NCBI GenBank assembly: GCA_036377595.1
Contig: DASUYB010000098.1
Span: 1-53,740, forward strand
Direction of reading: 5' to 3'
Source of the DNA: Longimicrobium sp.
GTDB taxonomy: Bacteria > Gemmatimonadota > Gemmatimonadetes > Longimicrobiales > Longimicrobiaceae
DNA length: 53,740 nt
The notes below the pieces were generated by a model. That model was given only the letters and a program-made list of their open reading frames with translations. It was not told the origin of the DNA and did no database searches. This document shows, one piece after another, positions 4,372 through 24,812 of the stretch. How positions within the stretch are numbered: position 1 is the stretch's first letter; each line of letters opens with the position of its first letter. The translations under genes and the position numbers were made by a program.

Positions 4372-4397
4372 AGCCTCCGCAGTTCCACGCGGAGGCT
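4372..4397. terminator. Hairpin downstream of the ParB-B gene
   Basis: AGCCTCCGC pairs with GCGGAGGCT around an 8-nt loop, 24 bp past the minus-strand ParB-B stop codon. On the plus strand it is followed by TTGAGTTT; on the minus strand there is no U-run. A terminator for the four-gene operon is inferred from position. Confidence 0.45.
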
Positions 4398-4420
4398 TTG
4401 AGTTTCCTCATCGACGCCCT

Positions 4421-6981: not shown

Positions 6982-7397
6982 GAGCGCAGTTCCGTTTCGA
7001 ATGGGAGAATTATCGATTCGACGCGTTCTGCCCTCACGGCCAGCTTCGCGTTGCGAACAATAGATCTTGCGGTCCCGGCGAGTGGCCACGGGATAGCGAT
7101 AACCAGTCTGGGATCAGGCTGAAGGGCCAAGTGCTCCAAATAAGCGTGCAACTGCCGGCGAGAGCGACGCGTCTCCAGATCCCGGTACCACTTTGCTTCC
7201 CCAATGATCAAGAAACTGGATGGCACGGTGCGGGCAACGACATCAGGTACGAAGCCTCCGACCGGGAATGGCTTGTTGCCTGGATCTGCTTCCGGACCGT
7301 CCCGGAAAATGCAGAGCCCCGGGTGAGCGCCGTGGTGCTCCACCACCCACCGTACAATGCGGTCGACAAGTCGCGCATGCTGCGCGGACTCAGGCAT
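6978..7397 (-). CDS. PD-(D/E)XK-fold nuclease, small
   Basis: 139 aa. The catalytic pattern of the restriction-endonuclease fold is visible: D52 in GGFVPDVVA, then E67 and K69 in FLIIGEAKWY, followed by an RRQLHAYLEHL helix with the conserved Q. This matches VRR-NUC/Holliday-resolvase-like or type II restriction-like nucleases of minimal size. Its stop overlaps the helicase GTG, so motor and nuclease are translationally coupled. It starts 51 bp after ParB-A. DNA cleavage as the effector step of the system is inferred. No cognate methyltransferase with classical motifs is adjacent, so self-protection is unexplained. Confidence 0.75.
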   Translation of the reverse strand: MPESAQHARLVDRIVRWVVEHHGAHPGLCIFRDGPEADPGNKPFPVGGFVPDVVARTVPSSFLIIGEAKWYRDLETRRSRRQLHAYLEHLALQPDPRLVIAIPWPLAGTARSIVRNAKLAVRAERVESIILPFETELRS

Positions 7398-7448
7398 CCT
7401 CGTTCCTCGACTCGTGTCCCTCTCGCCGTCGGCCTAAATCGCAGCCTT

Positions 7449-8477: not shown

Positions 8478-8612
8478 CTCTCGTGTACCGGGGGGAGTGC
8501 TGTGAGGGAGGGAAACGCGATGGGGTGTCACCGAAAACTGGCGTATCCGTTCGTGAAGCGCAATTCCCACCCGTCCCCGGGAGCGAGTTCTGAGCTTCGC
8601 GCATCTGATTGC

Positions 8613-8630
8613 CCATTCCGGCCGGAATGC
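8613..8630. repeat. Island palindrome, copy 3 (CATTCCG-GC-CGGAATG)
   Basis: Third copy of the palindrome, upstream of the ParB-A operon and on the integrase-proximal edge. Arms are perfect over seven bases. The 8478-8983 interval has no convincing gene; this palindrome and a GC-rich stretch (8640-8690) are all I see there. Confidence 0.7.
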
Positions 8631-8983
8631 AGGTCAGCCGCTGCGGCCACGGCCGCGCCCGCCCCGGCCGTCGTCGCCGCGGGCCATCTTTACCCTCAGC
8701 TCGAGGGTGGCTTTCACGACCGCGACATGCGGAGCCTTGACCATGACGGCGATCTGCTGGACATGCTTAGCACCTGCCTTTTCATGTGATTTTCGCGCGC
8801 GGAAGCCGCGGCGACGGTCTCCGGGGTATCAGTAAGCAAACTGTCGCGCCCCAGCGTCTTGCCGTCCCTGAAGGTCCGGAAGCCCGGCATAGCCCGAAAC
8901 CTCGGCGCTTGGTAGGGCATCGCTGGAGGAGCGGCGACAGTTCGCCGATCGACCCATTGCACCGCTCGCGCTGACCCGACCCG

Positions 8984-9385
8984 ATGCTCCACGCGCTCAC
9001 CCCGGCCGACCTCCCCGAGACCTGGCGCGCGCTCGCCATGCAGCAGCGCAGCCTGGGCGCCGACGCGCAGGCCCGCACCCTCGAATGGTGTGCGGACCAG
9101 CTCACCACGGCCATGCTGCAGAAGGCGGACGAGCTCCTGAGCCTGCGCCGTGCAGCCCAGGAATCCGGCTACAGCGTGGACCATCTTAGCCTCCTCTTGC
9201 GTGAAGGAAGAATCCCGAATTCCGGACGCAAGGGCAAGCCGCTGATCCGTCGCAAGGACCTCCCGAGAAAAGCGGAGAAAACGAGGGTCAAACCTTGTCT
9301 TTCGCCGCTGAGTGGGTATGTTCCGGACAGGCTCTTCCGGGACATCATCCACTCCAAATTGGGAGATGATGATGCCCAAAGCTGA
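8984..9385 (+). CDS. Excisionase-like HTH protein
   Basis: 133 aa; its end overlaps the integrase start by a few codons. The middle contains a MerR/excisionase-type helix-turn-helix: LLSLRRAAQESGYSVDHLSL followed by LLREGRIPNSGRKGKPLIRR, the pattern in which the wing reads a lysine/arginine-rich sequence. The N-terminal part is an acidic helical stretch with no family match. Overlap with a tyrosine integrase gene and position beside a tRNA fit a recombination directionality factor or an integrase regulator. No strong ribosome site precedes the ATG. Confidence 0.7.
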   Translation: MLHALTPADLPETWRALAMQQRSLGADAQARTLEWCADQLTTAMLQKADELLSLRRAAQESGYSVDHLSLLLREGRIPNSGRKGKPLIRRKDLPRKAEKTRVKPCLSPLSGYVPDRLFRDIIHSKLGDDDAQS

Positions 9386-10649
9386 GAAGAAGTGCTGGTC
9401 CGAGTCGTTCGGTATGTACGGCTCGACCATCCGCGTAGCAGAGCGGGAGCCCGGCGGGGTTCTCTACCTGCTATGGATTGACAACAAGGGTAAGCGGCAG
9501 AAGCGGAGCCTGGGTCATCGGGACCGCAAGCTCGGAAAGAAGCAGGCACTCGAGCTTGCCACCCGCATGGGCGAGATCACTCAGGGCGAGCAGCGGGAGC
9601 CCGAACCTGAGCCGCTCACGCTCCGCGAGGGAATCGCGCTCGCGTTCGATCCCGTCCGCGGGATGTACCCGACCGAGTCGAAGCACTCACGCGAATCCAG
9701 GAAGCTGGCCGAGCGCGGCGCGGAGATTCTCGGGCACGAGTTGCAGTGGGCCGAGCTCACCCCCGGGAAGATCCAGTACCTGGTCCGGGTGCTCGGGCGC
9801 CGCAGCAAGGATGGCCGCGGGGCGCGTACGGCCGAGTACATGTGCGACATGCTCTACGGCGTGGCGAGCTGGCTCCGGCAGGAGGAGTTGATCCCGGAGA
9901 CGGCCGCACTGCCGAAGCGGAACTGGAAGGTTCGCCTGAAGCAGGAATGGCAGGCGCTGACCGGGGTTCGCGTCGAGCCGAAGCGTCCCAGGCACTCCGT
10001 GGACGAGGTGGCGTTGATCTTCGCCGCGCTCCCAGCGGCGGACCCACGGCTGCGGTTGCTGGTGGAACTGGCGGCGGAACTGCGGGCGGGGCAGGCCGTG
10101 CGGGCGAAGCGAAGCGATCTGGTGCTGGACGCTGTTGGTGGGTTCGGCCTCGGTCGCTTCATCGTCCACGGGCGGGGGAAGAAGCACGGCGAGGTTGTCG
10201 ATCTCCACCCCGAGCTTCGCGCGCTCGTGGATGAGGTCCTGTCGGAGGGCTATCTCTCCGTGGCGGAGGCCGCGCTTCGCAGGAAGGAGATCGAGGACTA
10301 CTACCTCTTTCCCGCGGGGCGGCTGAAGGAAGGGAAGGCGCTGCTCGACTGGGTAACGCGCCAGCCGCTCGGTCCGACGGCGATCCGGGACATGTTCCGG
10401 GCGCTCGAAAAGGCGGCGGGTGTGGAGCACCAGGCGGGCCGGTCGTTCTACGGCCTGCGCCGGCAGGCGACGGACCTGGCGCCGGAGTTCGCGCAGGACG
10501 CCCGCGTGCTGAACCGGCTGACGGGCCACCTCGACAGCGCGACGCGTGAGCGGGTGTACCAGGACCCGCAGAACGAGATCGTCCGGGCGCGGGCGGCCAA
10601 GGCCCGGAGGGAGATGCGCCAGTACCTCGGCAAGGGGCAGGCGGCCTGA
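9372..10649 (+). CDS. Tyrosine recombinase, island integrase
   Basis: 425 aa from the third of three consecutive ATGs, six bases after GGGAG. The first part holds an Arm/SAM-like N-terminal region (GGVLYLLWIDNKGKRQKR). The C-terminal catalytic domain shows the arginine in LAAELRAGQAVRAKRSDL, the box II variant SFYGLRRQATDL (Tyr in place of the usual His of HxxR), LTGHLDSATRERVYQDP with the conserved His, and the nucleophile Tyr in RVYQDP. It ends about 90 bp from the 3' end of a tRNA-Pro gene, the classic arrangement for tRNA-targeting genomic islands. It most likely inserted the 1-10.7 kb island. Confidence 0.85.
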   Translation: MPKAEKKCWSESFGMYGSTIRVAEREPGGVLYLLWIDNKGKRQKRSLGHRDRKLGKKQALELATRMGEITQGEQREPEPEPLTLREGIALAFDPVRGMYPTESKHSRESRKLAERGAEILGHELQWAELTPGKIQYLVRVLGRRSKDGRGARTAEYMCDMLYGVASWLRQEELIPETAALPKRNWKVRLKQEWQALTGVRVEPKRPRHSVDEVALIFAALPAADPRLRLLVELAAELRAGQAVRAKRSDLVLDAVGGFGLGRFIVHGRGKKHGEVVDLHPELRALVDEVLSEGYLSVAEAALRRKEIEDYYLFPAGRLKEGKALLDWVTRQPLGPTAIRDMFRALEKAAGVEHQAGRSFYGLRRQATDLAPEFAQDARVLNRLTGHLDSATRERVYQDPQNEIVRARAAKARREMRQYLGKGQAA

Positions 10650-10696
10650 GCAAATGTAGCCCAGAATGTAGCCCACCCCCTCCTTGGATGTGAAAA

Positions 10697-10724
10697 GCCC
10701 CGGCAGCGTAACCGCTGCCGGGGC
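10697..10724 (-). terminator. Intrinsic terminator of the tRNA-Pro gene
   Basis: A perfect 12-bp stem (GCCCCGGCAGCG and its complement) with loop TAAC. Read on the minus strand it is followed by TTTTCA, so it ends transcription from the tRNA. It can also stall transcripts leaving the integrase gene. Confidence 0.85.
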
Positions 10725-10739
10725 AATCACTTAAACCAG

Positions 10740-10813
10740 TCGGGACGGCCGGATTTGAACCGGCGACCCCCTGAACCCCATTCAGGTGCGCTACCGGGCT
10801 GCGCCACGTCCCG
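10740..10813 (-). tRNA. tRNA-Pro (anticodon GGG)
   Basis: Minus-strand cloverleaf: 7-bp acceptor (CGGGACG/CGTCCCG), anticodon stem CCTGA/TCAGG with loop ATGGGGT giving anticodon GGG, and T-arm with GGTTCAAATCC. The discriminator base is A; CCA is not encoded. It reads proline codons CCC/CCU. Its 3' end faces the integrase gene, so it is the probable attachment site of the island, with the 3' part of the tRNA restored on integration. The second att copy would lie left of the window. Confidence 0.93.
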
Positions 10814-11374
10814 AAACCGGTATCTCCACGCGTCGGCTGACGGCGCGAAGAAGTGCAAATGTAGCGGAACCGGGTGTTTGCGTCAACCCGGCGCCGTCCG
10901 CATCGATCCGTCTCGCCGGCACGAGGGCTTCAGCCGCGGGCACGATCTCTGGTGACGAGACGACGGGTTGCGGGAGCGCGGAATCAAGATCTAGCGACTC
11001 CCGCTCGATACGATCTCCGCGGCCTCGGCATCCTCCTGCCGACGACCGACGAGTTCTCATGGGAAAGAGAGGGAGGAATGCGTTGGAATCTGCGCTGATC
11101 CACTGGCCTTCACCGCAAACGGCGCGGATTGTATGTGTGGGATGCAGATCCTATAGAGCCGTTATTATCTGACGACTGAATGAGCAGCCTTGAATCCAGA
11201 TCCGCCCGGTCATAACTGCACGATCACAATAAGTGCAAGCAAAATTCCCATTCAGAACGCAACTCATCATCATGAAAAACTAATGTTGTCCGACGCCTTG
11301 CGCGTCTTCCGAAAATTGATTTACCTTAACCGCCATCTTTCGAGGAAACATCCTGTTCTTGGGGAGAGATCCCG
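10814..11374. promoter_or_regulatory. Intergenic region upstream of the RiPP operon
   Basis: No gene is supported. Bases 11165-11345 are clearly more AT-rich than their surroundings and precede the first gene of the RiPP operon, so the operon promoter probably lies here; no exact -35/-10 pair can be assigned. GGGGAGAG at 11361-11368 is the ribosome site that decides the TTG start at 11375. Confidence 0.4.
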
Positions 11375-12745
11375 TTGACCCGGTTCTCGTTCGCCTCGGT
11401 TCGTTCCTGCACCCCGGCCAGCCGCGCCGCCCTCGTCGCGCGGGTGGCGGTGGCCGCCTCCATCGTGGGGGTCGCGCCCGCGGCGGAGGCGCAGGACCTG
11501 ATGGCGATGAACCGGGCGGGGCGCTGGGCCGAGGTGATCCCCGCGGCCGAGGTGCTCCTGCGCGACCCCGCGCTCTCCGCGGAGCGCGCGTGCGAGACCC
11601 GGGCGGAGCTGATCCACGCGGCCACCTACGCCGGGCGGGTGGAGAAGGCGCGCGAGGCCATGCGCGCCTTCGACGCCCGCTGCGCTTCCTTCCCGCAGGA
11701 CGCGTGGTTCCGCCGCGAGGTCCAGGCCCTCGCGGAGCGCCTCGGGTCCGCGCCCGCGGCCGGCATGTCGCGCACGGCGAGCGCGCCCCTCGCGGACGGG
11801 GGCGGATGGCGGGCCGGCAATGCCGCCGCGCTGGGGCTCGACACCGCCGCGCTGGCGCGGCACCGCGCGCTGTGCGAGGGCTCCGGCGCCGACGCCTGCC
11901 TGGTGGCCTTCCGCGGCCGGATCGTGCAGGAGTGGTACGGCCCGGAGTACCGCTACCCGATGCCCACCATGTCCAGCATGAAGTCGTGGACCGGGCTGCT
12001 CGCCGGGCTGCTGGTCGCGGACGGCAGGATCGGGCTGGACGACCCGGTGGCGCGCTGGCTCCCCGAGTGGCGCGCCGGCGCCGGGCGGGGCGTCACCCTC
12101 CGCCATCTCCTCACCATGACCGGCGGGCTGCGGCGGCGCTGGGGGCGGGGCCCGGGCGACGAGATGGTGGGCGGCGTCAGCGACAAGAACGCCCTCGTCC
12201 TGTCGCTGCCGCTGGAGCGCGCGCCCGGCGAGCGGTGGGAATACAGCAACGAGGGGGCGCAGCTCCTCTCGCCCCTGCTGGAGCGCGCGGCGGGGCGGCC
12301 GCTGCGGGAGTACGCCGCCGAGCGCCTCTTCGCGCCGCTGCAGATGGACTCCACCAGCCTGCGCCTGGACGGCGCCGGGCACGCCTGGACGTACGCCGAC
12401 GCGCGCACCACGCTGCGCGACTTCGCCAAGATCTGCCAGCTGGCGCTGGACGGCGGGCGCTGGAACGGCCGGCAGGTGGTGCCCGAGGCATGGATCCGCG
12501 CCTCGCTCACGCCTTCGCCGCGGAACCCGGCGTACGGCTTCCTGTGGTGGCTGGGGACGGATCCCACCGTCTACGCCACCCGCGGCTACCTGGACACCGA
12601 CTGCGAGGCCTATCCCGAATGGGGCCTGGTCGTCGCCCGCATGCAGGCCCGCCCCCGGCCCGGCGCGCAGCCGTACCGCACCCCCGGCACCACGCGCCTC
12701 CTGGCCGAGGTCGTCCGCCACCCTCTTCCCGCGCCCCGGCCATGA
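11375..12745 (+). CDS. Exported class C beta-lactamase-like serine hydrolase
   Basis: 456 aa; TTG start seven bases after GGGGAGAG. A signal peptide ends near AAEA-Q (about residue 39). Residues 40-130 form a helical Ala/Glu-rich segment. The hydrolase domain follows: SxxK nucleophile in SSMKSW (about 205), YSN motif in EYSNEG (about 290), and a C-terminal region matching the beta-lactamase/PBP-like family (family S12). These enzymes act on peptidoglycan stem peptides, beta-lactams, esters or amide-linked peptides in the periplasm. It heads the RiPP operon and overlaps the cyclase start (ATGA). A role in maturation, immunity or cell-wall remodelling is inferred. Confidence 0.8.
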   Translation: MTRFSFASVRSCTPASRAALVARVAVAASIVGVAPAAEAQDLMAMNRAGRWAEVIPAAEVLLRDPALSAERACETRAELIHAATYAGRVEKAREAMRAFDARCASFPQDAWFRREVQALAERLGSAPAAGMSRTASAPLADGGGWRAGNAAALGLDTAALARHRALCEGSGADACLVAFRGRIVQEWYGPEYRYPMPTMSSMKSWTGLLAGLLVADGRIGLDDPVARWLPEWRAGAGRGVTLRHLLTMTGGLRRRWGRGPGDEMVGGVSDKNALVLSLPLERAPGERWEYSNEGAQLLSPLLERAAGRPLREYAAERLFAPLQMDSTSLRLDGAGHAWTYADARTTLRDFAKICQLALDGGRWNGRQVVPEAWIRASLTPSPRNPAYGFLWWLGTDPTVYATRGYLDTDCEAYPEWGLVVARMQARPRPGAQPYRTPGTTRLLAEVVRHPLPAPRP

Positions 12746-13977
12746 CCGCCGCCGCACCCGCCGCGCCCCCGCTGACCCTGGCCGCGCGCGCGCTCCGCAT
12801 CGCCCGCGAGCGGCTGGCGCAGGCGATCGAGCTTCCCGACGGGAGCCTCACCTGGCACCCCGGCTACGGCGTGACCTTCGCGCCGGTGGACGACTCGGGG
12901 ATGTTCAACGGCCGCGTGGGCGACGCCTTCTTCCTGGCCGCCGTGCACGCCGCCACCGGCCGCGCCGAGATGCGCGACGCCGCGCTCCGCGCCACGGCCC
13001 CGCTCCGCGCCCGCATCCGCGCCGCGGGCGGACCCGAGGGGCTGCTGGCGGAGACCGGATACGGGCTGACGGGGACGGGCTCGATGGTCTACGCCCTGGT
13101 GCGGATGGCCGGCTTCCTGGGCGAGCCCGCGATGCTGGACGAGGCGCGCACGCTGGCCGCCGTCTTCACCCCCGACGCGATCGCGCGCGACGAGAAGCTG
13201 GAGATGTTCTGGGGGACGGCGGGGACGATCCCCGCGCTCTTCGCGCTGGCGGACGCCGACCCCGCCGGCGCGGCCGGGTGGACCGAGCGCGCTGTGTGGT
13301 GCGCCGGGCACCTGGCCGCCCATCGCCAGGCGGACCCCGAGACCGGGCTGCGCGCCTGGCCCGGCGCGCGCGGCGAGCTGGAGACCGGGTTCGCGCACGG
13401 GAGCAGCGGTGTGGCGCACGCGCTGCTCGAGGTGTTCAGGCGCACCGGCGAGCGGCGCTTCTACGACGCCGCGGTGGAAAGCTTCGCCTTCGAGCGCGCG
13501 CTCTTCCGCGAAGACGTGATGGACTGGCCCGACTCGCGGAGCGAGCCGGGGAAGATGATCGGCTCGTGGTGCCACGGCGCGCCCGGGATCGGGCTGAGCC
13601 GCCTGGCCGCGCTCGACGGGCTGCGCCCCGACGACGAGCGGGGCGTGGCGGGCGACCTCTTCCTGGCGCTGGAGAAGGCGGGGAAGCGGAAGAAGGGCGG
13701 GGTCGACAACCTCTGCTGCGGGCACTTCGGCCGCGTCGACTTCCTCCTCGAGACCGCCCGCCGGCTGGGGAACCCGTCGCTCGAGGCGCAGGCGCGCGCG
13801 CTGGCCGAGCAGCGGTTGCGGGCGACCGATCAGCGCGGCTTCCGCCTCCCCGAGCACGACACCGGGGGCGACGAGCACATGCGCACCGGGCTGTGGCAGG
13901 GCGCGCCGGGGATCGGCTACGCGCTCCTGCGGCTGGACGACCCGGCGCGCTTCCCCTGTATCCTCCTCCTGGCCTGA
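12742..13977 (+). CDS. Stand-alone lanthionine cyclase, LanM-like with CCG zinc motif
   Basis: 411 aa; the ATG overlaps the previous stop (ATGA). It corresponds to the C-terminal cyclase domain of LanM-type synthetases without the dehydratase: GFAHGSSGVAHALL (216-229), GSWCHGAPGIGLSRL (274-288) with zinc ligand C277, and NLCCGHFGRVDFLLE (323-337) with C325/C326. The CCG motif replaces the usual CHG third ligand and is known from ProcM-like promiscuous LanM cyclases. WQGAPGIGYALLRL and the CILLL ending are also typical. It would add cysteine thiols of the precursor to dehydro-residues in the cytoplasm. The dehydratases are encoded separately at the other end of the operon. Confidence 0.88.
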   Translation: MTAAAPAAPPLTLAARALRIARERLAQAIELPDGSLTWHPGYGVTFAPVDDSGMFNGRVGDAFFLAAVHAATGRAEMRDAALRATAPLRARIRAAGGPEGLLAETGYGLTGTGSMVYALVRMAGFLGEPAMLDEARTLAAVFTPDAIARDEKLEMFWGTAGTIPALFALADADPAGAAGWTERAVWCAGHLAAHRQADPETGLRAWPGARGELETGFAHGSSGVAHALLEVFRRTGERRFYDAAVESFAFERALFREDVMDWPDSRSEPGKMIGSWCHGAPGIGLSRLAALDGLRPDDERGVAGDLFLALEKAGKRKKGGVDNLCCGHFGRVDFLLETARRLGNPSLEAQARALAEQRLRATDQRGFRLPEHDTGGDEHMRTGLWQGAPGIGYALLRLDDPARFPCILLLA

Positions 13978-13988: not shown

Positions 13989-15842
13989 ATGGTTCCTCCC
14001 CCCACCGGGAGCGGCGCCGCCGCCGACCCGGCGCCCGCCGAGGCGCCGGCGCTCCGCGACGCCTACGGCCAGTTCCGGCGGCTCACGCTGCTGATGCGCC
14101 CCTTCTGGCTTCCCCTGCTGCGGGGGATGGGGATGGGGGTGGTGGTGCAGCTGCTGGGGCTGGCCATGCCCTGGACCACCAAGGTGCTGGTGGACCAGGT
14201 GTACCCTTCCGGGAACGTGACGCTGCTGAACGTGGCGGTGGGCGCCGCGCTGGCCATCGGCGCCACCAGCCTGCTGCTGAACGGCGTCCAGAACTACTAC
14301 AACCTCACCGTCAACACCCGCCTCAACAACGCCGCGGGGCTCCTCTTCTTCAACCACCTGCAGCACCTTCCCATGCGCTTCTTCGAGGAGAACCGCGTGG
14401 GCGAGCTGATGAGCCGCTTCGGCGACGTACGCCGCGCGCTGCAGAGCGTGGCCCGCGTGTTCCAGACGCTCTTCCTGCAGGGGCTCTACCTCCTCCTCGT
14501 CCCCCCCTTCCTCTTCCTGCTGCACTGGAAGCTGGCGGTGGTGGCGCTGGTCAGCATCCCCCTGACCACCGCGGTGATCGCGCTGTCGGGCGGCGCCATG
14601 CGCAAGCGCTGGAAGCGCAGCGCCGAGGCCTACGCCGACCTCTCGGCCTTCCAGACCGAGGCGTTCACCCAGATCCGCACCCTCAAGTCCATGGGGCTCG
14701 AGGGGCACACCTTCGCCCGCGCCCGCGACAAGCTGACGCGGGCGATGGACGTGGAGCTGCGCGCCGGCGGGCTGGGGCAGATGGTGACCAGCACCAACGG
14801 GATCCTGGGCGCGCTGAACACGGCGCTCCTCACCTGGCTGGGGTGGCACTACATCGTCAGCGGGTCGATGACGCTGGGCGACTACATCGCCTTCACCGCC
14901 TACAGCGGCTACCTGTACGGCCCCATCAACCAGATGGTGGGCCTCTTCTCCGAGTTCCAGCAGTCGGCGGTCAACCTGGGCCGCATGTTCGAGTACCTCG
15001 ACGGCGAGCCCGAGCAGGACCCCCAGGGCGCGTACCGGGGCGAGGCCCCGCCCGCCGTGCACACCATCGCCCGGGGCGAGGTGGTGCTGGAGGACGTCGT
15101 CTTCGGCTACGCGCCGGAGAAGCGCGCGCTGGACGGGGTGAGCCTGCGGATGGCGCCGGGGACGGTCACGGCCATCGTGGGCCCCAGCGGCTCGGGGAAG
15201 ACGTCGCTGCTGCGCCTGCTCACGCGGCTGGAGCACGCCGGCGGCGGGCGGATCCTGATCGACGGCGTACCCGTCTCGCGCATCCCCCTGGCCGACCTGC
15301 GCCGCCAGGTGTCGGTGGTGTGGCAGGAGTACAGCCTGCTCTCCGGCACGGTGTGGGAGAACCTGACGCTGGGGATGGGCGCCGTGCCTCCCGAGCGGGT
15401 GTACCGCGCCTGCCGCCACGCGCAGGCCGACGACTTCATCCGCACCCTCCCCAACGGCTACCGCACCACCGTGGCCGAGGCGGGGATGAGCCTGTCGGGG
15501 GGGCAGCGGCAGCGGATCGCCATCGCGCGGGCGCTGGTGCGCGGCGCGCCCATCCTGCTGCTCGACGAGGCCACCGCCAACGTCGACATGGCCACGGAGG
15601 CGCGCATCCTGGAGACGCTGGTGCGCGAGTACCGCGACCACACCGTGGTGTTCGTCACCCACCGCATCGCCATGGCGCGCCACGCCGACCAGGTGTGCGT
15701 GCTGGAGAACGGCCGCGTGGCCGGGGTGGGGCCGCACGCGGCGCTGCTGCGCGAGTGCGAGGCGTACCAGCGCCTGCACGGCGGCCCGGTCTCCGTTCCC
15801 GCGGCGCCGGCGGCGGCGCCCCTCGCGGCGGCGGCCTCGTGA
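13989..15842 (+). CDS. ABC exporter, TMD-NBD half transporter
   Basis: 617 aa. About six transmembrane helices occupy residues 35-310 (for example the GMGMGVVVQLLGLAMPWTT and LYLLLVPPFLFLL segments), followed by an ATPase domain with GPSGSGKTS Walker A, LSGGQRQRIAIARAL signature, ILLLDEATANVD Walker B and the THR H-loop. There is no N-terminal C39 peptidase, so leader removal must be done by another enzyme, probably the S8 protease encoded downstream. It starts 11 bp after the cyclase gene and overlaps the next (GTGA). It likely exports the modified peptide as a homodimer. Confidence 0.88.
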   Translation: MVPPPTGSGAAADPAPAEAPALRDAYGQFRRLTLLMRPFWLPLLRGMGMGVVVQLLGLAMPWTTKVLVDQVYPSGNVTLLNVAVGAALAIGATSLLLNGVQNYYNLTVNTRLNNAAGLLFFNHLQHLPMRFFEENRVGELMSRFGDVRRALQSVARVFQTLFLQGLYLLLVPPFLFLLHWKLAVVALVSIPLTTAVIALSGGAMRKRWKRSAEAYADLSAFQTEAFTQIRTLKSMGLEGHTFARARDKLTRAMDVELRAGGLGQMVTSTNGILGALNTALLTWLGWHYIVSGSMTLGDYIAFTAYSGYLYGPINQMVGLFSEFQQSAVNLGRMFEYLDGEPEQDPQGAYRGEAPPAVHTIARGEVVLEDVVFGYAPEKRALDGVSLRMAPGTVTAIVGPSGSGKTSLLRLLTRLEHAGGGRILIDGVPVSRIPLADLRRQVSVVWQEYSLLSGTVWENLTLGMGAVPPERVYRACRHAQADDFIRTLPNGYRTTVAEAGMSLSGGQRQRIAIARALVRGAPILLLDEATANVDMATEARILETLVREYRDHTVVFVTHRIAMARHADQVCVLENGRVAGVGPHAALLRECEAYQRLHGGPVSVPAAPAAAPLAAAAS

Positions 15843-17707
15843 GCCCCGTCGCCCGCCCCCCGCGCGCCCCCGTCGCGCCGCGGGACCCCGCCGTGGAGGC
15901 GCGTGAGCGCTTCGCGCGCTTCGCCCCGGGCGTCCGCGCGGCGCGCCCGCCGAGCGCGGCCGAGGCGCGGATCCTGGACGCGTGCGCGGTCCCGCGCACC
16001 CTGCGCGAGCACGCCGCCGAGTGCGCGCGGGCGATTCCTCCCGCGCTGCTCGCCGGAGACGGCGGCGCCGTGCCCGCGGGGCGCGCGGCGCTGGAGGCGG
16101 CCGCCCTGGAGCGGCTCCGCCGCCTGGCCGGCGAGGGGCACCTGGTGGCCGAGGCGGAGCTCCTCGGCTGGCTGGGCGCGCGGCTCGAGGCGGGCGCCGG
16201 CTCATCTCCCGCGCCGCGCATCGGCGCGCTCTGCATCCCCACGCGCAACCGCCCCGGCACCCTCGCGCGCGGGCTGGAGAGCTGGCTCGAGCACGGCGCA
16301 CGCCACGGGCGGGAAACGGAGGTGGTGGTGCTGGACGACAGCGACTCGGCCGACGCACGCGCGGAGAACCGGCGGACGCTGCGCGCGCTGGCCGGCCGCC
16401 ATCGCCGCGCCGCCTTCGCCGCCGACCACGCGCGGCGGGGCGCGTACGCGCGCGTCCTCGCGGCCGCCGCCGGCGTGCCGGAGGAGACGGCCCGCTTCGC
16501 GCTGCTCGGCGACGCCCGCCTGGGCGCGACCTACGGCGCCACCCGCAACGCGCTCCTCCTGGACGGCGCGGGCGGGCTCTGCCTGCAGGTGGACGACGAC
16601 ACCCTGGCCACCGTCTGCCGCCCGCCCGGCGCCCGCGAGGAGCTGGCGCTCGCCCTCGCGCCCGACCCCAACGAGTACTGGTTCGCCTCCTCGTTCGACG
16701 CCGCGCTGGCGGCGGTGGAGGTGGTGGACGAGGACTTCCTGGCCGTCCACGAGCGCCTGCTGGGGAGCACGCCGGGGGAGTGCGCCGCCTCGGGGCGGAG
16801 CGGGCCCGCGCGGGTGGGCGTTCCCTGGGACGAGGCGTACCTGGCGCGGGTCTCCGAGCCGGGCGCGCGCGTGGCCGTGAGCTTCGGGGGGATCGTGGGC
16901 GACTGCGGGGGGCCGGGGCGCGCCCAGTGGCGGCTGGCGCTGCGCGGCCCCTCGCTGGAGCGCCTCGCCGCCGGCGCGGACGGGTTCGCGGCGCGGCTCC
17001 GCGCGCGGCAGCTGGTGAAGTGCACCACCCGCGCCGGCCTGGGCACGGGCGCGTACTGCATGGCGGGGAACATGGGGGTGGACCTGCGCGTCCTCCTCCC
17101 CCCGTTCGTCCCCGGCGGGATCGCCGAGGACGCGCTCTTCGGCACCCTGCGCGCGGCGCTCTTCCCCCGGCTGCTGAGCGGCTTCGTTCCTCGCGCCATC
17201 GTCCACCGTCCCCATCCTCCCCGTCCCGACCCGGCCCTCCCCGTCCCCCTGTCGACGTACGCCAACGGGGTGACCGGCGCGCTGGTGGCGGAGCATCTCG
17301 CCACCGGTCCGGCCGGCGAGGGCGCGGAGGCGCTGGGGATCCTCGGCGCGCATCTCGAGGCGCTCGGCGCGCTCGAGGCGGACGCGTTCGCCGCGCGGGT
17401 GCGGGAGGCGATGGGGCGGGCGGCGGCCGCGGCGGTGAGGCAGATGGAAACGCTGCTCGCCGCCACCCGCGGCGCGCCCCCGCATTGGCGCGCCGCCGTG
17501 GAGGAGAGCCGCCGCGAGACCGCGACGCTGCTGGAGCGCGAGGACCCGTCGGCCCCCGCCGACCTGCCGGGGAGCGACGATGCGCGGCGCGCGGCCTTCC
17601 GGCTCCTGCTGCGCGGCTACGGCCGGGTGCTGCGGAGCTGGCCGGCGCTGGTGGAGGCGGCCGCGGAGCTGCGCGGCCGCGGCGTGCGCCTGGCGGAGCC
17701 CGCGTGA
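15839..17707 (+). CDS. GT2-like glycosyltransferase-related protein
   Basis: 622 aa from a GTG in a GTGA overlap with the transporter. Residues 1-115 are helical and unassigned. From about 120 a GT-A-type nucleotide-binding fold is suggested by IGALCIPTRNRPGTLARGLE, EVVVLDDSDSADAR and LCLQVDDDTLATV, the last a DxD-like metal site. The remainder (PNEYWFASSFD, GTGAYCMAGNMG, FVPGGIAEDALFGTL) resembles an acceptor-binding part but is not one I can place. It may glycosylate the peptide or a cell-envelope acceptor; lone GT-like proteins occur in other RiPP operons. Coupling to the transporter and transglycosylase genes supports a role in the same pathway. Confidence 0.6.
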   Translation: MSPVARPPRAPVAPRDPAVEARERFARFAPGVRAARPPSAAEARILDACAVPRTLREHAAECARAIPPALLAGDGGAVPAGRAALEAAALERLRRLAGEGHLVAEAELLGWLGARLEAGAGSSPAPRIGALCIPTRNRPGTLARGLESWLEHGARHGRETEVVVLDDSDSADARAENRRTLRALAGRHRRAAFAADHARRGAYARVLAAAAGVPEETARFALLGDARLGATYGATRNALLLDGAGGLCLQVDDDTLATVCRPPGAREELALALAPDPNEYWFASSFDAALAAVEVVDEDFLAVHERLLGSTPGECAASGRSGPARVGVPWDEAYLARVSEPGARVAVSFGGIVGDCGGPGRAQWRLALRGPSLERLAAGADGFAARLRARQLVKCTTRAGLGTGAYCMAGNMGVDLRVLLPPFVPGGIAEDALFGTLRAALFPRLLSGFVPRAIVHRPHPPRPDPALPVPLSTYANGVTGALVAEHLATGPAGEGAEALGILGAHLEALGALEADAFAARVREAMGRAAAAAVRQMETLLAATRGAPPHWRAAVEESRRETATLLEREDPSAPADLPGSDDARRAAFRLLLRGYGRVLRSWPALVEAAAELRGRGVRLAEPA

Positions 17708-18823: not shown

Positions 18824-19096
18824 ATGCACGCGAAGCTGAACCTGAGTCTCGACGAACTGCGCATCCGTACCTTTACGCCCACCCTGGAAGAGGACGCCCC
18901 CGAGGGCGCCGTGCACGCGCTGTGCGGCGACTGCTCGAACTGCTCCGGCTGCACCGGCTGCTCGAACTGTTCGGACTGCAGCAACTGCTCGGACTGCAGC
19001 AACTGCTCGGACTGCACCGGCTGCTCGGACTGCACCAACTGCTCGAACTGCACCGAGTGCACCTCGTCGACCTGCTTCATCTTCACGCTGTACTGA
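18824..19096 (+). CDS. RiPP precursor 1, pinensin-type leader, Cys-every-third-residue core
   Basis: 90 aa; GGGAGG six bases before the ATG decides the start. The leader KLNLSLDELRIRTF (4-17) fits the (K/R)LxLx(L/I)(D/E)xLx(V/I)x(S/T)F pattern of pinensin-type lanthipeptides. From residue 34 Cys recurs at 34, 37, 40 and so on to 79 (16 Cys, period exactly 3), then C84 and a hydrophobic tail CFIFTLY. Fifteen of the sixteen period-3 Cys are followed by Ser or Thr, so every third residue could become Dha/Dhb next to a thiol. LanB/LanC-type processing is expected; no YcaO gene is seen. A metal-binding product cannot be excluded. The gap upstream (18580-18823) may contain its own promoter. Confidence 0.88.
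   Translation: MHAKLNLSLDELRIRTFTPTLEEDAPEGAVHALCGDCSNCSGCTGCSNCSDCSNCSDCSNCSDCTGCSDCTNCSNCTECTSSTCFIFTLY
18971..19042 (+). repeat. 18-bp tandem repeat inside precursor 1
   Basis: Four near-identical 18-bp units (TCGGACTGCAGCAACTGC and variants) within a longer 9-bp periodicity spanning the core (18923-19060). Each 9-bp step encodes Cys-Ser/Thr-x three times per 27 bases. Such repeats can expand or contract by slippage and change the number of Cys triads. Confidence 0.85.
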
Positions 19097-19183: not shown

Positions 19184-19399
19184 ATGCACGAACGGCTGAC
19201 ACTGACGCTCGAGGCGCTGCGGGTGCGGACCTTCGCCACCACGCCGGCGCCGCACGGCGAGACGGACGACGACGACTGCGGCGAGTGCACCGAGGCCACG
19301 CGCTGCACCGACTGGACGCGCTGCACCCGCTGCACCTGGCCCAGCTGCATCGCCACGGAGGACGATGGCCCCGACTGCCTTCCCGGCACCGTTGCCTGA
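19184..19399 (+). CDS. RiPP precursor 2, pinensin-type leader
   Basis: 71 aa. The leader RLTLTLEALRVRTF (4-17) matches precursor 1 position for position, including the RTF ending. The core begins after DDDD and has seven Cys with irregular spacing among Thr-rich segments (CTEATRC, CTDWTRC, CTRC, CTWPSC), giving many Thr/Ser for dehydration. It ends LPGTVA. The ribosome site (GCGGGG) is weak. Its 3' end overlaps the S8 protease start by 35 bp in another frame, so the two are probably co-translated. Same operon, same enzymes as precursor 1 is the natural inference. Confidence 0.82.
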   Translation: MHERLTLTLEALRVRTFATTPAPHGETDDDDCGECTEATRCTDWTRCTRCTWPSCIATEDDGPDCLPGTVA

Positions 19400-20288
19400 C
19401 GCGGCGGCGGCGCTCGCCCCGGCGGACCGCGGCGGCGGCCTCGCCCGCCTCTACGCGCCGCTGCCGCGCCCGCGCTGGGCGCGCGGCACCACGGGCCGCG
19501 GCGTGCGCGTGGCGGTGATCGACAGCGGGTGGGACCACGCGCTGCGCGTTCCCGGGCTGCGGCTGCGCCCCGGCGTCTCCTTCGCCGGCGGCGCGGGCGC
19601 GCCCCCGGCCGACGACGGAGACCGGATCGGGCACGGGACGGCGTGCATCTCCACCCTCTTCCGCGTGGCGCCGGAGGCAGAGATCTGCCCCGTGCGCGTG
19701 TTCGGCGACGCCTTCGACACCTCGGTGGCGGCGCTGCGCGCGGCGCTGGAGTGGGCGGTGCGCGAGCGCTTCGACGTGATCAGCCTGAGCCTGTGGACGC
19801 CGCGCGCCGACGCGCTCGTCCCCCTCTACGCCGCCTGCGAGGAGGCGCGGCGGTCCGGCGTGGTGATCGTCGCCGCCGCGCCGGACGATCCGCGGACGGA
19901 GCACGTCTATCCCGCCGTGTTCGGCAGCGTGCTGAGCGTGGGCGAGGGCCCCTTCGGCGACCCGTTCGACTATGCCTTCCGCCACGGCGCGGCGGTGGAG
20001 TGCCTGGCCGCGCCGGGCGACCACGGCGCCGTGCTCTGGCGAGGCGGGCCGCGCGACGGGATGTGGGGCTCCAGCTTCGCCGCGCCGAACGTGGCGGGGA
20101 TCGCCGCCCTGCTGTGCGAGCGCCACCCCGGCGCGGGGCTCGAGGAGGTGCGCGGCCACCTGGCGCGCCACGCCCGCCCGCTCCCCGCCGACGCGGAGGC
20201 CGTGCGCGAGACCCGCCGCGCGGCCGGGCGCACCGCGCACGACGCGGCGCGGCAACCATCTTCTTCTCCGGACCCCCGAGACGCATGA
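19365..20288 (+). CDS. S8 subtilisin-like protease, LanP-type leader peptidase candidate
   Basis: 307 aa with the Asp-His-Ser triad in order: D53 in VAVIDSGWD, H90 in GHGTACIS, S237 in WGSSFAAPNVAG. No signal peptide is obvious, so it may act in the cytoplasm or be exported unconventionally. The usual oxyanion-hole motif AAGN is changed to AAPDD (about 171-175), replacing the Asn by Asp, which may slow or specialise catalysis. Class I lanthipeptide operons often carry such LanP proteases to remove the leader; the exporter here has no peptidase, so this enzyme is the best candidate. Overlaps precursor 2 at its start and LanB at its end (ATGA). Confidence 0.85.
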   Translation: MAPTAFPAPLPDAAAALAPADRGGGLARLYAPLPRPRWARGTTGRGVRVAVIDSGWDHALRVPGLRLRPGVSFAGGAGAPPADDGDRIGHGTACISTLFRVAPEAEICPVRVFGDAFDTSVAALRAALEWAVRERFDVISLSLWTPRADALVPLYAACEEARRSGVVIVAAAPDDPRTEHVYPAVFGSVLSVGEGPFGDPFDYAFRHGAAVECLAAPGDHGAVLWRGGPRDGMWGSSFAAPNVAGIAALLCERHPGAGLEEVRGHLARHARPLPADAEAVRETRRAAGRTAHDAARQPSSSPDPRDA

Positions 20289-23146
20289 CCACGCTCGCGC
20301 CCCCGGCGCCCGAAACGCAAACCGACACCGAGCCGCTCGCCGAGGGCGGCGGCCTGTTCCCGCACTTCGTCTGCCGCCTGTCGGGGCTTCCCGTCGACGC
20401 GGTCGAGTCGCTGCGCGCGCCGCGCTGCGAGGCGCTGCTCGAGCGGCTCCGCGACGTCGAGCAGGCGCTGGCCGCGGCGCGCGAGCCGGTGTCGGCGCTC
20501 CTCTTCGAGGCGGTGCGGGCGGAGGAATCCCCGGAGACCCGCAAGCAGCTGGTGAACCTCCGCCGCGACCTCTTCAACCTCCGTCCCGCCCGCCCGGCGG
20601 CGCTGGAGGCGGCGCGAACGGCGCTTTCTCCCGACGCCCAGGCCGGGGTCGAAGCGTTCGCGGCGCGGCTGGACGAGCGCGGCCGGGTACTCGGCGAGCT
20701 GCGCGCGCGCTACGCGGAAGAGACGCGCGCCGCGCGGACCCGCTTCCGCGCGCTGCTGGGGGAGGAAGACTTCCAGAAGGGGCTCCTCCTTTCCAGCCCC
20801 GCGCTGCACACCGCGCAGGCGCGCTACCTGGAGAGCGACGCCGGCCGGCCCGGGGGGAAGGCGGAGAAGACGGAGCGCGGGCTGCTGCGCTACTTCACCC
20901 GCACGGCGATGAAGGCCACCCCGTTCGGCACCCTGTGCGCGATCGTTCCCGGCGAGGTGGTGCCGGCGGCGCCGGGCGAGCGCGGCGCGCGGCTGCGGCT
21001 GGGCGGCGACCCGCGGCGCAAGCGCAGCTCCACGCGGCTGAACAAGCAGATCTGCGGGGTGATCACGCGCTGGGTGAAGGCGAACCCCGCGCTGCGGCCC
21101 TTCCTGGAGGTCGAGCTGAACCCCACCCTCTCCGACGAGGGCGAGGAGATGGCGTTCCTGGCCGTCCACAGGGAGCGCGAGGTGTTCCAGCGCATCGAGA
21201 AGAACCCGGTGCTGGAGCTGGTGGCCGACGAGCTGGCCGCGCGCCCCCGCGTGTCGCTGAGCGAGCTGGCGCGCGCGCTGGCCGCCAGCCCCGCGGTGGA
21301 CGCCGGCGAGGACGTGGCGCTGGCCTACCTCGAGAAGCTGGCGGAGGCCGGCTTCCTCCGCTTCCGGCTGGGGATCCGCGAGCAGGACGCCGACTGGGAC
21401 CTCCCGCTCCGCGCCCTGCTCGAGCGCACGGGCGACCCCGGCGCGCTGCGGCTGGCCGCGCTCCTGGGCACGCTGCGCGAGCGGGCCGGGCGGTACGACG
21501 CGGCCGGGCCGGAGGAGCGCATCCGTCTCCTCGCCGACACCCGCGCGGAGCTGGAGGAGGCGCGCGCGGCGCTGAAGCTGCGCGGCCCCGGCTTCGCCGC
21601 GAACCTTCCCTTCCTGGAAGATTCCACCGCCGACGTCCCCGTCACCCTCGCGCGCACCCCCGAGGTGCGCGCGCTGGAGGAAACGCTGGCCGGGCTGGTG
21701 CGGCTGGCGCGCCGGGTGGCGGCCAACCGCGGCGAGCAGGCCGAGATGCGCCACTGGTTCGAGGCGCACTACGGCCCCGACGCCGCGCCGGTCCCGCTCC
21801 TGGCCTTCTTCGAGGACTTCAGCCGCGAGCACCTGAAGCCGCACGCCCTCCTCCAGCGCCGCGGCGATCCGGGCGAGCTCCCCGCGGGATACCGCCCTTC
21901 CAACCCCTTCGGCCTCCCCTTCATCGACGGGCTGCGCCGCGCCGAGCGCGCGCTGTCGGACCTGGTCTCGGCACGCTGGGCCGCCGCGCCCGGCGCCGAG
22001 GAGGTGGCGCTCTCGCGCGGAGACCTCGAGGCGGTGCTGGGCGGCGTTCCCGCGATGAGCCCCGACCCGGCCTCGGCGGCGGCGTTCGCCGAGCTGGTGG
22101 GGGCCGACGCGGGAGGAACGGCCCGGCTCATCCTCACCAAGAGCGCGTTCGGGATGGGGTTCGGGAAGTTCTTCTCCCGCTTCCTCCCGCTCTTCCCCGC
22201 GCGGGTGCAGCGCGACCTGCAGGAGGCCAACCGCGGCCCGGCCGACGGGTTCATGGCCGAGATCTGCGGCGACGGCAACCACAACGCCAACCTCCATCCC
22301 CCACTGGTGGCGCGGGAGATCAGCTATCCCACCGGCGAGAGCGGGGTGGCCGAGGAGCAGGTGCCCTCCACCGACATCGTCGTCGCCCCGCACCCGGCCG
22401 ATCCGCGCGCGCTCTGCCTGGTGCACGCCCCCACCGGCGAGCGGGTGGTGCCGGTGGACCTGGGGATCGTGAACCCCGGCTCGCGCCCGCCGCTGTACCA
22501 GCTCCTCTCGCGCTTCACCCCGCCGGTGGAGCTGTACCTGCGCCTCCCCGAGCATCCCTTCCACCTGGCGGGGATCCTCCGCGACCCCGCGCTGGAGCCC
22601 GCCGGGCCCGCCGAGCGCGCCGCGCGCGAGGCGGCGGAGCGCGAGGCGCTGGACCGCTACCTCACCTCCGTCACCCACGCCCCGCGGATCGTCTACGAGG
22701 GGTGCATCGTCCTGCGGCGGCGGCAGTGGGTGGTCCCCGCGTCGCTCCTTCCGCGGCAGGGCGCCGACGAGGCGCCGCTCGACTTCTTCCTGCGCGTGGA
22801 CCGGTGGCGGCGCGAGCACGGCATCCCGCGCGAGGTTTACGCCTCCATCCAGCCGCTTCTCGTGCTCCCGGGCGGGGGTGGGGGGATGGACGAGGTGAAC
22901 GGGCGCCCGGTGCCGCGCCGGGTGAGCCGCGCCTCGCTCAACCACCGGAAGCCGCAGTACGTCGACTTCGCCAGCCCGCTGCTGGTGGGGCTCTTCGGCC
23001 ACTTCGCGCCGGACGACGGCGACGCCTACTCGGTGCTGCTCGCGGAGCGCCTCCCCGGGGGGGATGAGCTTCCCGAGTTCGAGGGGCGGCGCTACGCGGC
23101 GGAACAGATCATCCAGGTGAACCTGTCCCATGCTCCTGGCGAGTGA
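20285..23146 (+). CDS. Lantibiotic dehydratase, N-terminal (glutamylation) part, LanB-N
   Basis: 953 aa; ATG overlaps the protease stop. Conserved LanB N-region features: LPVDAVESLR near the start, RRDLFNLRPARP (about 95-106), and FTRTAMKATPFGTLCAI (about 205-220), the family's TPFG motif. It lacks the C-terminal SpaB_C elimination domain, which is encoded separately in the next gene with a 17-bp overlap. In LanB enzymes this part transfers glutamate from Glu-tRNA to Ser/Thr of the precursor. A split dehydratase is known from pinensin-type clusters and thiopeptide systems. With the cyclase it would make lanthionine-type rings in the Ser/Thr/Cys-rich cores. Confidence 0.88.
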   Translation: MTTLAPPAPETQTDTEPLAEGGGLFPHFVCRLSGLPVDAVESLRAPRCEALLERLRDVEQALAAAREPVSALLFEAVRAEESPETRKQLVNLRRDLFNLRPARPAALEAARTALSPDAQAGVEAFAARLDERGRVLGELRARYAEETRAARTRFRALLGEEDFQKGLLLSSPALHTAQARYLESDAGRPGGKAEKTERGLLRYFTRTAMKATPFGTLCAIVPGEVVPAAPGERGARLRLGGDPRRKRSSTRLNKQICGVITRWVKANPALRPFLEVELNPTLSDEGEEMAFLAVHREREVFQRIEKNPVLELVADELAARPRVSLSELARALAASPAVDAGEDVALAYLEKLAEAGFLRFRLGIREQDADWDLPLRALLERTGDPGALRLAALLGTLRERAGRYDAAGPEERIRLLADTRAELEEARAALKLRGPGFAANLPFLEDSTADVPVTLARTPEVRALEETLAGLVRLARRVAANRGEQAEMRHWFEAHYGPDAAPVPLLAFFEDFSREHLKPHALLQRRGDPGELPAGYRPSNPFGLPFIDGLRRAERALSDLVSARWAAAPGAEEVALSRGDLEAVLGGVPAMSPDPASAAAFAELVGADAGGTARLILTKSAFGMGFGKFFSRFLPLFPARVQRDLQEANRGPADGFMAEICGDGNHNANLHPPLVAREISYPTGESGVAEEQVPSTDIVVAPHPADPRALCLVHAPTGERVVPVDLGIVNPGSRPPLYQLLSRFTPPVELYLRLPEHPFHLAGILRDPALEPAGPAERAAREAAEREALDRYLTSVTHAPRIVYEGCIVLRRRQWVVPASLLPRQGADEAPLDFFLRVDRWRREHGIPREVYASIQPLLVLPGGGGGMDEVNGRPVPRRVSRASLNHRKPQYVDFASPLLVGLFGHFAPDDGDAYSVLLAERLPGGDELPEFEGRRYAAEQIIQVNLSHAPGE

Positions 23147-24812
23147 CCCCGCGCCCCCGGCGCCGTGCGCCCTCTTCCACGCGCCGGGCCACGCGTGGCT
23201 CTCGGCGCACCTCTTCGTCCGCGGCAACGTCTACGGGCCCCCGGGCGACCGGGTGATCCTGGAGGTGGTCGACCCGTTCGTCCGCCACTGCCTGGAGCGC
23301 GGGTGGATCGCCGGCTTCTTCTTCATCCGCTACGGCGAGCTGGGGCCGCACGTGCGGCTGCGGATGTACGGCGATCCCGGCGTCCTCGCGGGCGAGGTCT
23401 CCCCCGCGCTGGAGGCGTGGCTGCAGGACGCGCCCGCGGGCCTGCTGGCGGCGCCGCGCGAGGAGCCCACGGCCGTCACCCGCCCCTCGCGGGCCGAGGC
23501 GCTCCGCTGGATCGCGTACGAGCCCGAGGTGGAGCGGTACGGCGGCGATGAGGGGATGATGCTGGCCGAGACGCTCTTCCGCGCATCGAGCGAGGCCTGC
23601 ATCGAGCTGATGCGCGGCGCCGCGCTGGCCGACCGCTCCGTGCGGCTGGGGCGGGCGCTCCCCGCGCTGGTCGTGTCCCTCGCCCTCTTCGGGGGCGACG
23701 CCAGGCGCGCGGCCGAGCTGGCCCGTCTGCATCGCGACTCGTTCGTGGGCGACCCCGAGGTCGGGGGGGACAAGGGTTATGCGGAGGTGTTCGACGCGGG
23801 GATGGCGGCGCAGGAAGCGACGGTGCGCGACCGGGTGGAGGCGTTCTGGACGGCCGCGCGCGAGGGCGTCCCCCTTCCCGCGCCGCTGGACGGCTACCTC
23901 GACGGGCTCGCGGCCCACCGCGCGCGGCTGCGCGCGGCGGTGGAGGCGGGGCGGCTGGTGCTCGGCGGGAAGAGGGTGGAGACGTGGGACGAGGCGTGCC
24001 GCGGGCTCCTTCCCAGCTACGGCCACATGACGTGCAACCGCCTGGGCGTCACCTATCGCGAGGAAGGCTTCCTGCTCCACATGATCGCCCGCGTGCTGGG
24101 CGGCGGCGAATCCCCGCGCCCCGCGGCGGTGCGCCCGGCCGGCCTTGCGCGCGTCCCCGCGGACCGGGTGGGCGATGGATACGAGCAGGTGGTGATCCGC
24201 GCGGACCTCGAGGCGCCGTACCTCGAGGCGTACCGGCGGGTGCGAGCGCTGGGGGGGATCCTGACCTCCAGCGGGGGGATCCGGGAGCTCCGCGCGGCCG
24301 CCGCGCCGGGGCGCAGCCGCACCAGCGTGCACTACACCGGGCGCGCGATCGACCTCTACATCCGCACCGGGATGCAGGGGCCGGACGACCGCTACGCGAT
24401 CGTCCGCGACGGGGGGACGGACGAGCGTCCGCTCTGGCGGGTGTACTGCGCCGGCGAGCCGCCCGACCCCGCCGACCCGCTCCACGACCCCGCGCTGGTG
24501 CGGGAGATGGAGCTGGAGTGCGCGCTCTGGCGGCCGGGGGGGATCGAGACGGTGCGGCGGCGCGGCCGGTGGATCTGCCTGACCGACCTCCTGGCCGAGG
24601 CCGGCTGGCACCGCATCCCCGCGCGCGCGGACTGGCGCGACAACTACCTGTCCGTGGAGTGGTGGCACTTCCAGCACCACGGCGGCCTGGTCGCCGGCCA
24701 CACGCGCTTCGGCGACGAGCTTCTCCGCGCCTGGCCCGCCTCGCGCGTGGCGGAGAGCGGGCTGGCGCTCGACGCCGTCTGGACCGGCCTCTCCTTCGAC
24801 CCGCCGGAGTGA
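23130..24812 (+). CDS. SpaB_C elimination domain fused to M15/VanY-like peptidase
   Basis: 560 aa. Residues 1-340 match the SpaB_C/thiopeptide-type family: AWLSAHLFVRGNVYG, then FFFIRYGELGPHVRLRMYGD (about 63-82), and SYGHMTCNRLG. They would remove glutamate to form dehydro-residues. From about 350 the sequence changes to a peptidase M15-like (D-Ala-D-Ala carboxypeptidase) domain: SVHYTGRAIDLYI with H401 and D408, and VEWWHFQHH with E510 and H513, the full zinc/catalytic set. I know of no standard LanB partner with this fusion. The M15 part could trim the peptide or act on wall precursors. It is the last gene of the operon, so it may also be read from an internal start. Confidence 0.8.
   Translation: MLLASDPAPPAPCALFHAPGHAWLSAHLFVRGNVYGPPGDRVILEVVDPFVRHCLERGWIAGFFFIRYGELGPHVRLRMYGDPGVLAGEVSPALEAWLQDAPAGLLAAPREEPTAVTRPSRAEALRWIAYEPEVERYGGDEGMMLAETLFRASSEACIELMRGAALADRSVRLGRALPALVVSLALFGGDARRAAELARLHRDSFVGDPEVGGDKGYAEVFDAGMAAQEATVRDRVEAFWTAAREGVPLPAPLDGYLDGLAAHRARLRAAVEAGRLVLGGKRVETWDEACRGLLPSYGHMTCNRLGVTYREEGFLLHMIARVLGGGESPRPAAVRPAGLARVPADRVGDGYEQVVIRADLEAPYLEAYRRVRALGGILTSSGGIRELRAAAAPGRSRTSVHYTGRAIDLYIRTGMQGPDDRYAIVRDGGTDERPLWRVYCAGEPPDPADPLHDPALVREMELECALWRPGGIETVRRRGRWICLTDLLAEAGWHRIPARADWRDNYLSVEWWHFQHHGGLVAGHTRFGDELLRAWPASRVAESGLALDAVWTGLSFDPPE

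Follow-up and report, generated by a model that had tools for sequence, protein, structure and literature searches.

What does a putative zinc peptidase do at the end of a lanthipeptide elimination enzyme? The question is raised by an open reading frame of Longimicrobium sp. that a first-pass annotation had described as a SpaB_C elimination domain fused to an M15, VanY-like peptidase. The frame lies on a contig of 53,740 nucleotides, the whole of which is referred to as the window (contig C98 of genome G000, an assembly of 7.2 Mb in 208 contigs). A SpaB_C plus M15-type architecture with intact zinc and catalytic residues is supported by Pfam matches, residue conservation, profile-profile alignment with hhalign and fold comparison.

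A split-LanB cluster hosts the fusion gene

Judged by gene content, the fusion gene belongs to a class I lanthipeptide cluster of the split-LanB type (Table 1). The set is complete, with a LanB N-terminal half, a separate elimination protein, LanC, a transporter and Cys-rich precursors. The stop of the subtilase gene overlaps the start of the LanB gene, and the fusion gene in turn begins within the end of the LanB gene, an arrangement that implies co-translation of the three. The core of precursor 1 is built from about 15 C-S/T-x repeats, and its counterparts in two related genomes, G296 and G198, end in CYTTY or CYLTY. Leaders of the type L.LDDLRVE(T/S)F are abundant: a single precursor query at E 0.01 gave 51 matches in G000, 53 in G224 and 51 in G243, and these hits, taken as a bulk count, suggest many scattered lanthipeptide-type precursors in each of the three genomes. 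Copies of the GT51 domain, 45 to 50% identical, sit directly after a full-length LanB gene in two further genomes (L071, contig C322 of G293, about 8787 to 9629; L072, contig C9 of G010, about 10470 to 11147). The anchor-less transglycosylase of the window is a candidate for a role in immunity or in attachment of the peptide to the wall.

Table 1. Coordinates of the fusion gene, its parts and the surrounding cluster genes in the window.
Feature	Position	Strand	Evidence or remark
Serine beta-lactamase/DD-peptidase-like protein, signal-like N-terminus	11375..12745	+	PF00144 E 1.2e-35; cluster membership uncertain
LanC cyclase	12742..13977	+	PF05147 E 1e-43
ABC transporter	13989..15842	+	PF00664/PF00005; 75% identical in G296
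GT2-like protein	15839..17707	+	weak PF00535 match, E 0.007, below cut-off; relatives in G198, G296
Peptidoglycan glycosyltransferase domain (GT51), no N-terminal hydrophobic segment	17704..18579	+	PF00912 E 6e-48; hydropathy
Precursor peptide 1, 90 aa, leader LSLDELRIRTF, core of C-S/T-x repeats	18824..19096	+	relatives in G296, G198
Precursor peptide 2, 71 aa, ends CLPGTVA	19184..19399	+	G296 counterpart ends CQPGTAA
Subtilase, QhpE-like, probable leader protease	19365..20288	+	PF00082 E 2.5e-20; NF049966 E 1.8e-35, below model cut-off
LanB N-terminal (glutamylating) half, separate protein, 953 aa	20285..23146	+	PF04738 E 2.9e-42
Fusion protein, SpaB_C elimination domain + linker + M15-type peptidase, 560 aa	23130..24812	+	ORF, Pfam, alignment, predicted fold
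Lant_dehydr_C/SpaB_C domain, residues 23-322	23196..24095	+	PF14028 E 1.1e-39; NisB alignment
Linker, residues 323-341	24096..24152	+	gap between Pfam match end and conserved-domain start
M15-type (LAS) zinc peptidase domain, residues 342-560	24153..24809	+	alignment, AF2 pLDDT 91.4, fold matches, hhalign
H401 codon, zinc ligand by motif	24330..24332	+	invariant 6/6
D408 codon, zinc ligand by motif	24351..24353	+	invariant 6/6
E510 codon, general base by motif	24657..24659	+	invariant 6/6
H513 codon, zinc ligand by motif	24666..24668	+	invariant 6/6

The N-terminal half matches the SpaB_C elimination family

The first-pass annotation had assigned the N-terminal 340 residues to SpaB_C. The family match is real, with PF14028 (Lant_dehydr_C) scoring 137.6 bits against a curated cut-off of 24.4 and covering positions 1 to 254 of the 255 in the model, and TIGR03891 matching the N-terminal part at E 4e-29. 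Its extent is narrower than proposed, however, since the match ends at residue 322 and a linker leads to the M15-like region, which begins at about residue 342. Arg136, in the segment YEPEVERYGG, aligns with position 826 of the NisB chain 4wd9 (NisB R826). His299 falls within SYGHMTCNRLG, an HMxxNR segment; Arg76, Arg78 and His299 are assigned by motif only. Family membership and these conserved residues suggest that this half is active in elimination. A full-length structure prediction, for which the alignment spanned only the C-terminal half, was poor (mean pLDDT of 56.5, with the SpaB_C half mostly below 50), and the model was set aside for the N-terminal half because of the low pLDDT.

The C-terminal half resembles M15/LAS peptidases

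The M15 residues named in the initial annotation, His401, Asp408, Glu510 and His513, are as stated. Together with Arg385, Ser396 and Ser399, they are invariant in an alignment of six sequences drawn from four phyla. The bare HxxxxxxD...[E/D]xxH pattern is weak evidence, arising in 2009 of 20000 shuffled versions of the 219-residue half; the full signature, SxHxxGxAxD...ExWHF, arose in none of 200000. Profile libraries gave little. No M15 Pfam family matched the peptidase half above its cut-off, NCBIfam returned one irrelevant match only, and the domain taken alone matched no Pfam family even at E 10 and no NCBIfam family even at E 1. Among six relatives scanned, PF13539, PF08291 and PF02557 were matched by one each (best E values of 0.011 to 0.086), and by the window's copy not at all. 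Sequence searches of the PDB with the domain alone or with a three-sequence profile yielded nothing credible, and PHROGs gave weak matches only, endolysins among them (best endolysin E of 0.078).

Because no Pfam or NCBIfam family was reached, the M15 assignment rests on the motif, its conservation, one local profile-profile match and the predicted fold. The profile-profile match was obtained with hhalign against a VanY-family alignment made from 14 of 18 VanY/M15 loci in related genomes (L044, L045, L054 and L055 were omitted). It has a probability of 94 and an E value of 9e-8 over 63 columns that include the SGxR and SxHxxGxAxD segments, and it stops short of the ExxH segment. AlphaFold2 predicts the C-terminal half with a mean pLDDT of 91.4 and a pTM of 0.88. 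Plain Foldseek found no match at E 0.001, placing VanX at rank 6 (E 0.73) and VanY at rank 10 (E 1.3); its top four rows, at E 0.02 to 0.24, are unrelated methyltransferases, and Foldseek alone is unconvincing. In a second look at the PDB with VIA-align, all 13 rows were M15 or hedgehog chains, with Z scores of 3.8 to 6.0 (all below 8). They comprise LdcB, VanY (VanYB), VanX, Ply500, VanXY, LysB4, hedgehog and the Streptomyces albus DD-peptidase, which form a single superfamily. Since these Z scores are modest and Foldseek is weak by itself, we regard the M15/LAS fold of this half as likely rather than proven. Zinc binding and peptidase activity are predicted from the motif residues. The possibility raised at the outset that this half merely extends SpaB_C did not hold up, for the domain exists alone elsewhere and is predicted to fold independently.

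One reading frame spans the junction

The two halves are confirmed to form a single continuous protein, encoded from an ATG start through 560 codons with zero internal stops. GC content by codon position is 0.78/0.54/0.96 over the full frame, junction included. That a sequencing error erased a stop or the frame between two adjacent genes is very unlikely. The fusion is known from one instance in a single assembly of 208 contigs, but the frame is kept, the third-position GC bias runs unbroken across the junction, and inspection by eye revealed no obvious ribosome site ahead of an internal start. Hydropathy shows no signal-like or strongly hydrophobic segment, which would place the protein in the cytoplasm.

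The fusion is rare. Using the fusion protein (P0001) as query, 19 of 295 genomes of the class were matched at E 1e-5, the window's own genome included; one of the 19, G093, matched the C-terminal part only. We measured the distance from the end of the SpaB_C alignment to the stop codon at the 23 other SpaB_C loci, and an M15 tail is absent from every one. At 17 of them the alignment reaches residue 305 or beyond and 0 to 50 residues remain before the stop. The other six align only to residues 155 to 188, and the 132 to 166 residues that remain are the rest of SpaB_C itself. None of the 23 thus has space for a peptidase. The C-terminal domain occurs in 2 of 21 genomes of the family, the window's and G296, and the fusion in one genome only among those examined.

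A sister cluster carries the peptidase as a separate gene

The assembly of G296 is 61% complete and in 630 contigs. Contig C256 carries a standalone peptidase gene, 65% identical to the M15 half and opening with a GTG just past the preceding stop; LanC (62% identical) and then the ABC transporter (75%) follow it. Contig C102 holds the end of a GT2-like gene (55%), a transglycosylase (65%) and three precursors, and the gene order of the window suggests a single cluster divided between C256 and C102. Contig C45, with a LanB N-terminal half (47%), an unfused SpaB_C (49%) and another LanC adjoining, is probably a second cluster. Because the separate gene adjoins LanC and the transporter in G296, we infer that clusters of this type include the peptidase as a component, which became fused in the window. 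The fusion point in the window (VRPAGLARVPAD) is where the standalone gene would begin (VGERPGFVGLDTVPAD in G296), and the fusion therefore appears to have arisen by in-frame joining of neighbouring genes. In the window, the position directly before LanC that the separate M15 gene holds in G296 is taken by the beta-lactamase/DD-peptidase-like gene.

Such a history could also leave a neutral or scaffolding fusion, in which loss of the stop codon between neighbours joined to the elimination domain a peptidase that cuts ordinary wall fragments or has no relevant substrate. The restriction to one genome, the 23 of 23 other SpaB_C loci without an M15 tail and the coincidence of the junction with a standalone gene start are what one would expect of it. 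However, all catalytic residues are kept and the divergence from the G296 copy is about that of LanC, so the domain seems to be under constraint as part of the cluster, and we consider a neutral fusion improbable.

The related cluster of G198 contains S8, ABC, GT2-like, LanC, SpaB_C and LanB genes and a precursor of type 1, the only type seen there; it has no match to the M15 domain and none to the transglycosylase. Precursors of type 2, with a C-terminal Ala, are encoded in both lanthipeptide genomes that bear the peptidase, the window's and G296, so that the co-occurrence comprises two genomes with and one without.

Relatives of the domain point to the cell wall

When 84,980 species genomes were scanned with an alignment of three sequences, a method that catches only copies with the exact motif words and misses more distant ones, 50 pattern matches came up, five of them true relatives: two from Gemmatimonadota and one each from a Bacillota MAG, Thalassotalea mangrovi and a Myxococcales MAG, with identities from 65 down to 36%. 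None of the five is fused to SpaB_C. In the Bacillota MAG (L040) and T. mangrovi (L041) the domain is placed after PG_binding_1 repeats; another relative (L042) is standalone, downstream of OmpA/PG_binding_1 genes; and in L039, from G400, the domain is preceded by an unrelated N-terminal extension, and no lanthipeptide genes were seen adjoining it. A distant relative on contig C57 of G296 likewise has a PG_binding_1 repeat. Because relatives carry these repeats, the usual substrate of the domain family is probably peptidoglycan.

When 395 sampled genomes of the phylum were searched with a six-sequence profile, 4 matched. The ExxH pair is missing from L069 (G093) and L070 (G385), two distant homologues from Gemmatimonadota, and part of the family may therefore be non-catalytic. 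The match in G093 was weak enough to be suspected of arising by chance, which the profile search (E 1.5e-14) and the translation, that of a distant homologue lacking ExxH, led us to reject. No relative was found among the plasmids, phages and viral contigs searched. The distant M15-like segment on contig C57 of G296 (L066, 2082 to 3503) lies with PG_binding_1 in a 474-residue frame, next to a protein that by eye resembles contractile injection system cargo.

A wall-directed family raises the possibility of self-protection, in which the M15 half, like VanX or VanY, would strip D-Ala from cytoplasmic peptidoglycan precursors and so deny the lanthipeptide or its intermediates their target, with the transglycosylase serving the same protective function. 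The PG_binding_1 relatives agree with this, as do the best matches among solved structures, which include VanX, VanYB, VanXY and LdcB, and the anchor-less transglycosylase domain in the clusters of the window and G296 and directly after LanB in G010 and G293. However, among the genes of the window that were scanned, none stood out as an alternative D-Ala-D-X ligase, and self-protection gives no reason for fusion to an elimination domain. Known lipid II-binding lantibiotics, moreover, mostly grip the pyrophosphate rather than D-Ala, and the producer is one that we take, from what holds for its phylum, to be probably diderm. We regard self-protection as possible, on the unlikely side.

Trimming of the modified precursor is the favoured role

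We favour precursor trimming over immunity directed at wall precursors, because the fusion puts the peptidase beside the peptide that the elimination domain handles. A second reason is that precursors of the second type, ending in PGTVA or PGTAA, are encoded in both lanthipeptide genomes that have the peptidase. The best explanation, to which we give rather less than an even chance, is a bifunctional cytoplasmic enzyme whose M15 half trims the modified lanthipeptide precursor. The SpaB_C half would eliminate glutamate from Ser/Thr residues glutamylated by the separate LanB half. The C-terminal half would be a catalytically active zinc peptidase with the M15/LAS fold: a cluster component, present as a separate gene in G296, that became linked in frame to the SpaB_C end and would cleave one residue or a short tail off the modified precursor while the dehydratase complex holds it. 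A plausible target is the C-terminus of precursor 2 (PGTVA, or PGTAA in G296). M15 enzymes prefer bonds beside D-configured residues, and lanthionine rings supply such residues. Trimming also has a published precedent of a kind: elimination domains occur in fusion with a methyltransferase that has a homologue among peptide-tailoring enzymes. Against it stand the PG_binding_1 repeats of the relatives, the transglycosylase domain of the cluster and the presence in G198 of the precursor-1 type without an M15 domain. Shaping of the C-terminus of precursor 1 was considered as a role and dropped, the tails CFIFTLY, CYTTY and CYLTY being alike with and without the domain.

A more far-reaching version, which we think unlikely, makes the LAS peptidase a built-in site of RiPP maturation whose preference for D-residues would serve to proof-read or trim the lanthionine peptide; together with the anchor-less transglycosylase and the GT2-like protein, the cluster might then couple a lanthipeptide to wall fragments. 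Least probable of all is that the M15 domain is the leader peptidase. The cluster contains no other metalloprotease, but a QhpE-like subtilase lies immediately before LanB, with homologues in the G198, G010, G243 and G179 loci, and the peptides cut by M15 enzymes are short or contain D-residues.

Comparison with described enzymes

Like the split LanB enzymes (pinensin type, SptBb), the window protein has a Lant_dehydr_C domain apart from the glutamylating half, and with NisB it appears to share the canonical Arg in EVERYGG and, by motif, the His in HMxxNR. Described split LanB elimination enzymes are not known to extend beyond the domain, whereas in the window a 219-residue peptidase follows. 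Split LanB proteins have been described for pinensin, SapT and thiopeptides (PMC7268733; PMC9011353). In SptBb the catalytic His is missing, as is an active-site Arg (PMC9011353), in contrast to the window protein, in which the canonical catalytic residues appear present.

The first-pass annotation knew of no such fusion in RiPP enzymes. This stands for the peptidase within the scope searched: an elimination domain with a peptidase partner was not found in the open-licence PMC literature, and the passages on split LanBs there name none. It does not stand for elimination-domain fusions as such, of which those with PIMT-type methyltransferases, CoiSA included, have been published (PMC7268733; PMC9011353). 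Because of these SpaB_C-methyltransferase fusions, the peptidase is a new partner within a known fusion type, and in this its novelty lies. As in CoiSA and the PIMT/PCMT fusions, the elimination domain is joined to a second pathway enzyme that is also a separate gene in other clusters. The partner there is a methyltransferase and in the window a putative zinc peptidase, the fusion protein having no Pfam match to a PIMT/PCMT methyltransferase; the coi cluster, moreover, also has a full-length LanB.

With M15/LAS peptidases (LdcB, VanY, VanX, VanXY, Ply500, LysB4 and the S. albus G DD-peptidase) the C-terminal half shares SxHxxGxAxD and ExWH and, by prediction, probably the fold. It differs from them in falling below all Pfam and NCBIfam thresholds, in extra strands at about residues 420 to 485, in having no signal peptide and in being fused to a RiPP enzyme. 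The domains of L041 and L040 are of the same family, 36 to 40% identical with all invariant residues kept, but are fused to wall-binding repeats rather than to a lanthipeptide enzyme.

The pairing, unseen in any relative examined, is a testable new combination. A search of the leader-protease review PMC10885120 gave no occurrence of 'M15'. Should the peptidase act on the lanthipeptide, a protease family that this review does not mention would be added, and dehydration would be physically coupled to proteolysis. If it acts on wall precursors, an immunity enzyme would be welded to a biosynthetic one. Under either reading, the separate copy of G296 and the fused one are a well-matched pair for a test. 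That wall-type enzymes (transglycosylase, M15) recur in these clusters is a lead in itself.

Upstream of the cluster, GC content is 0.54 to 0.63 up to about 10 kb and 0.68 to 0.80 beyond. With an integrase-like frame at 9312 to 10649 (PF00589 below cut-off) and a tRNA at 10740 to 10813 on the minus strand, positions 1 to 11000 of the window are probably an integrated element.
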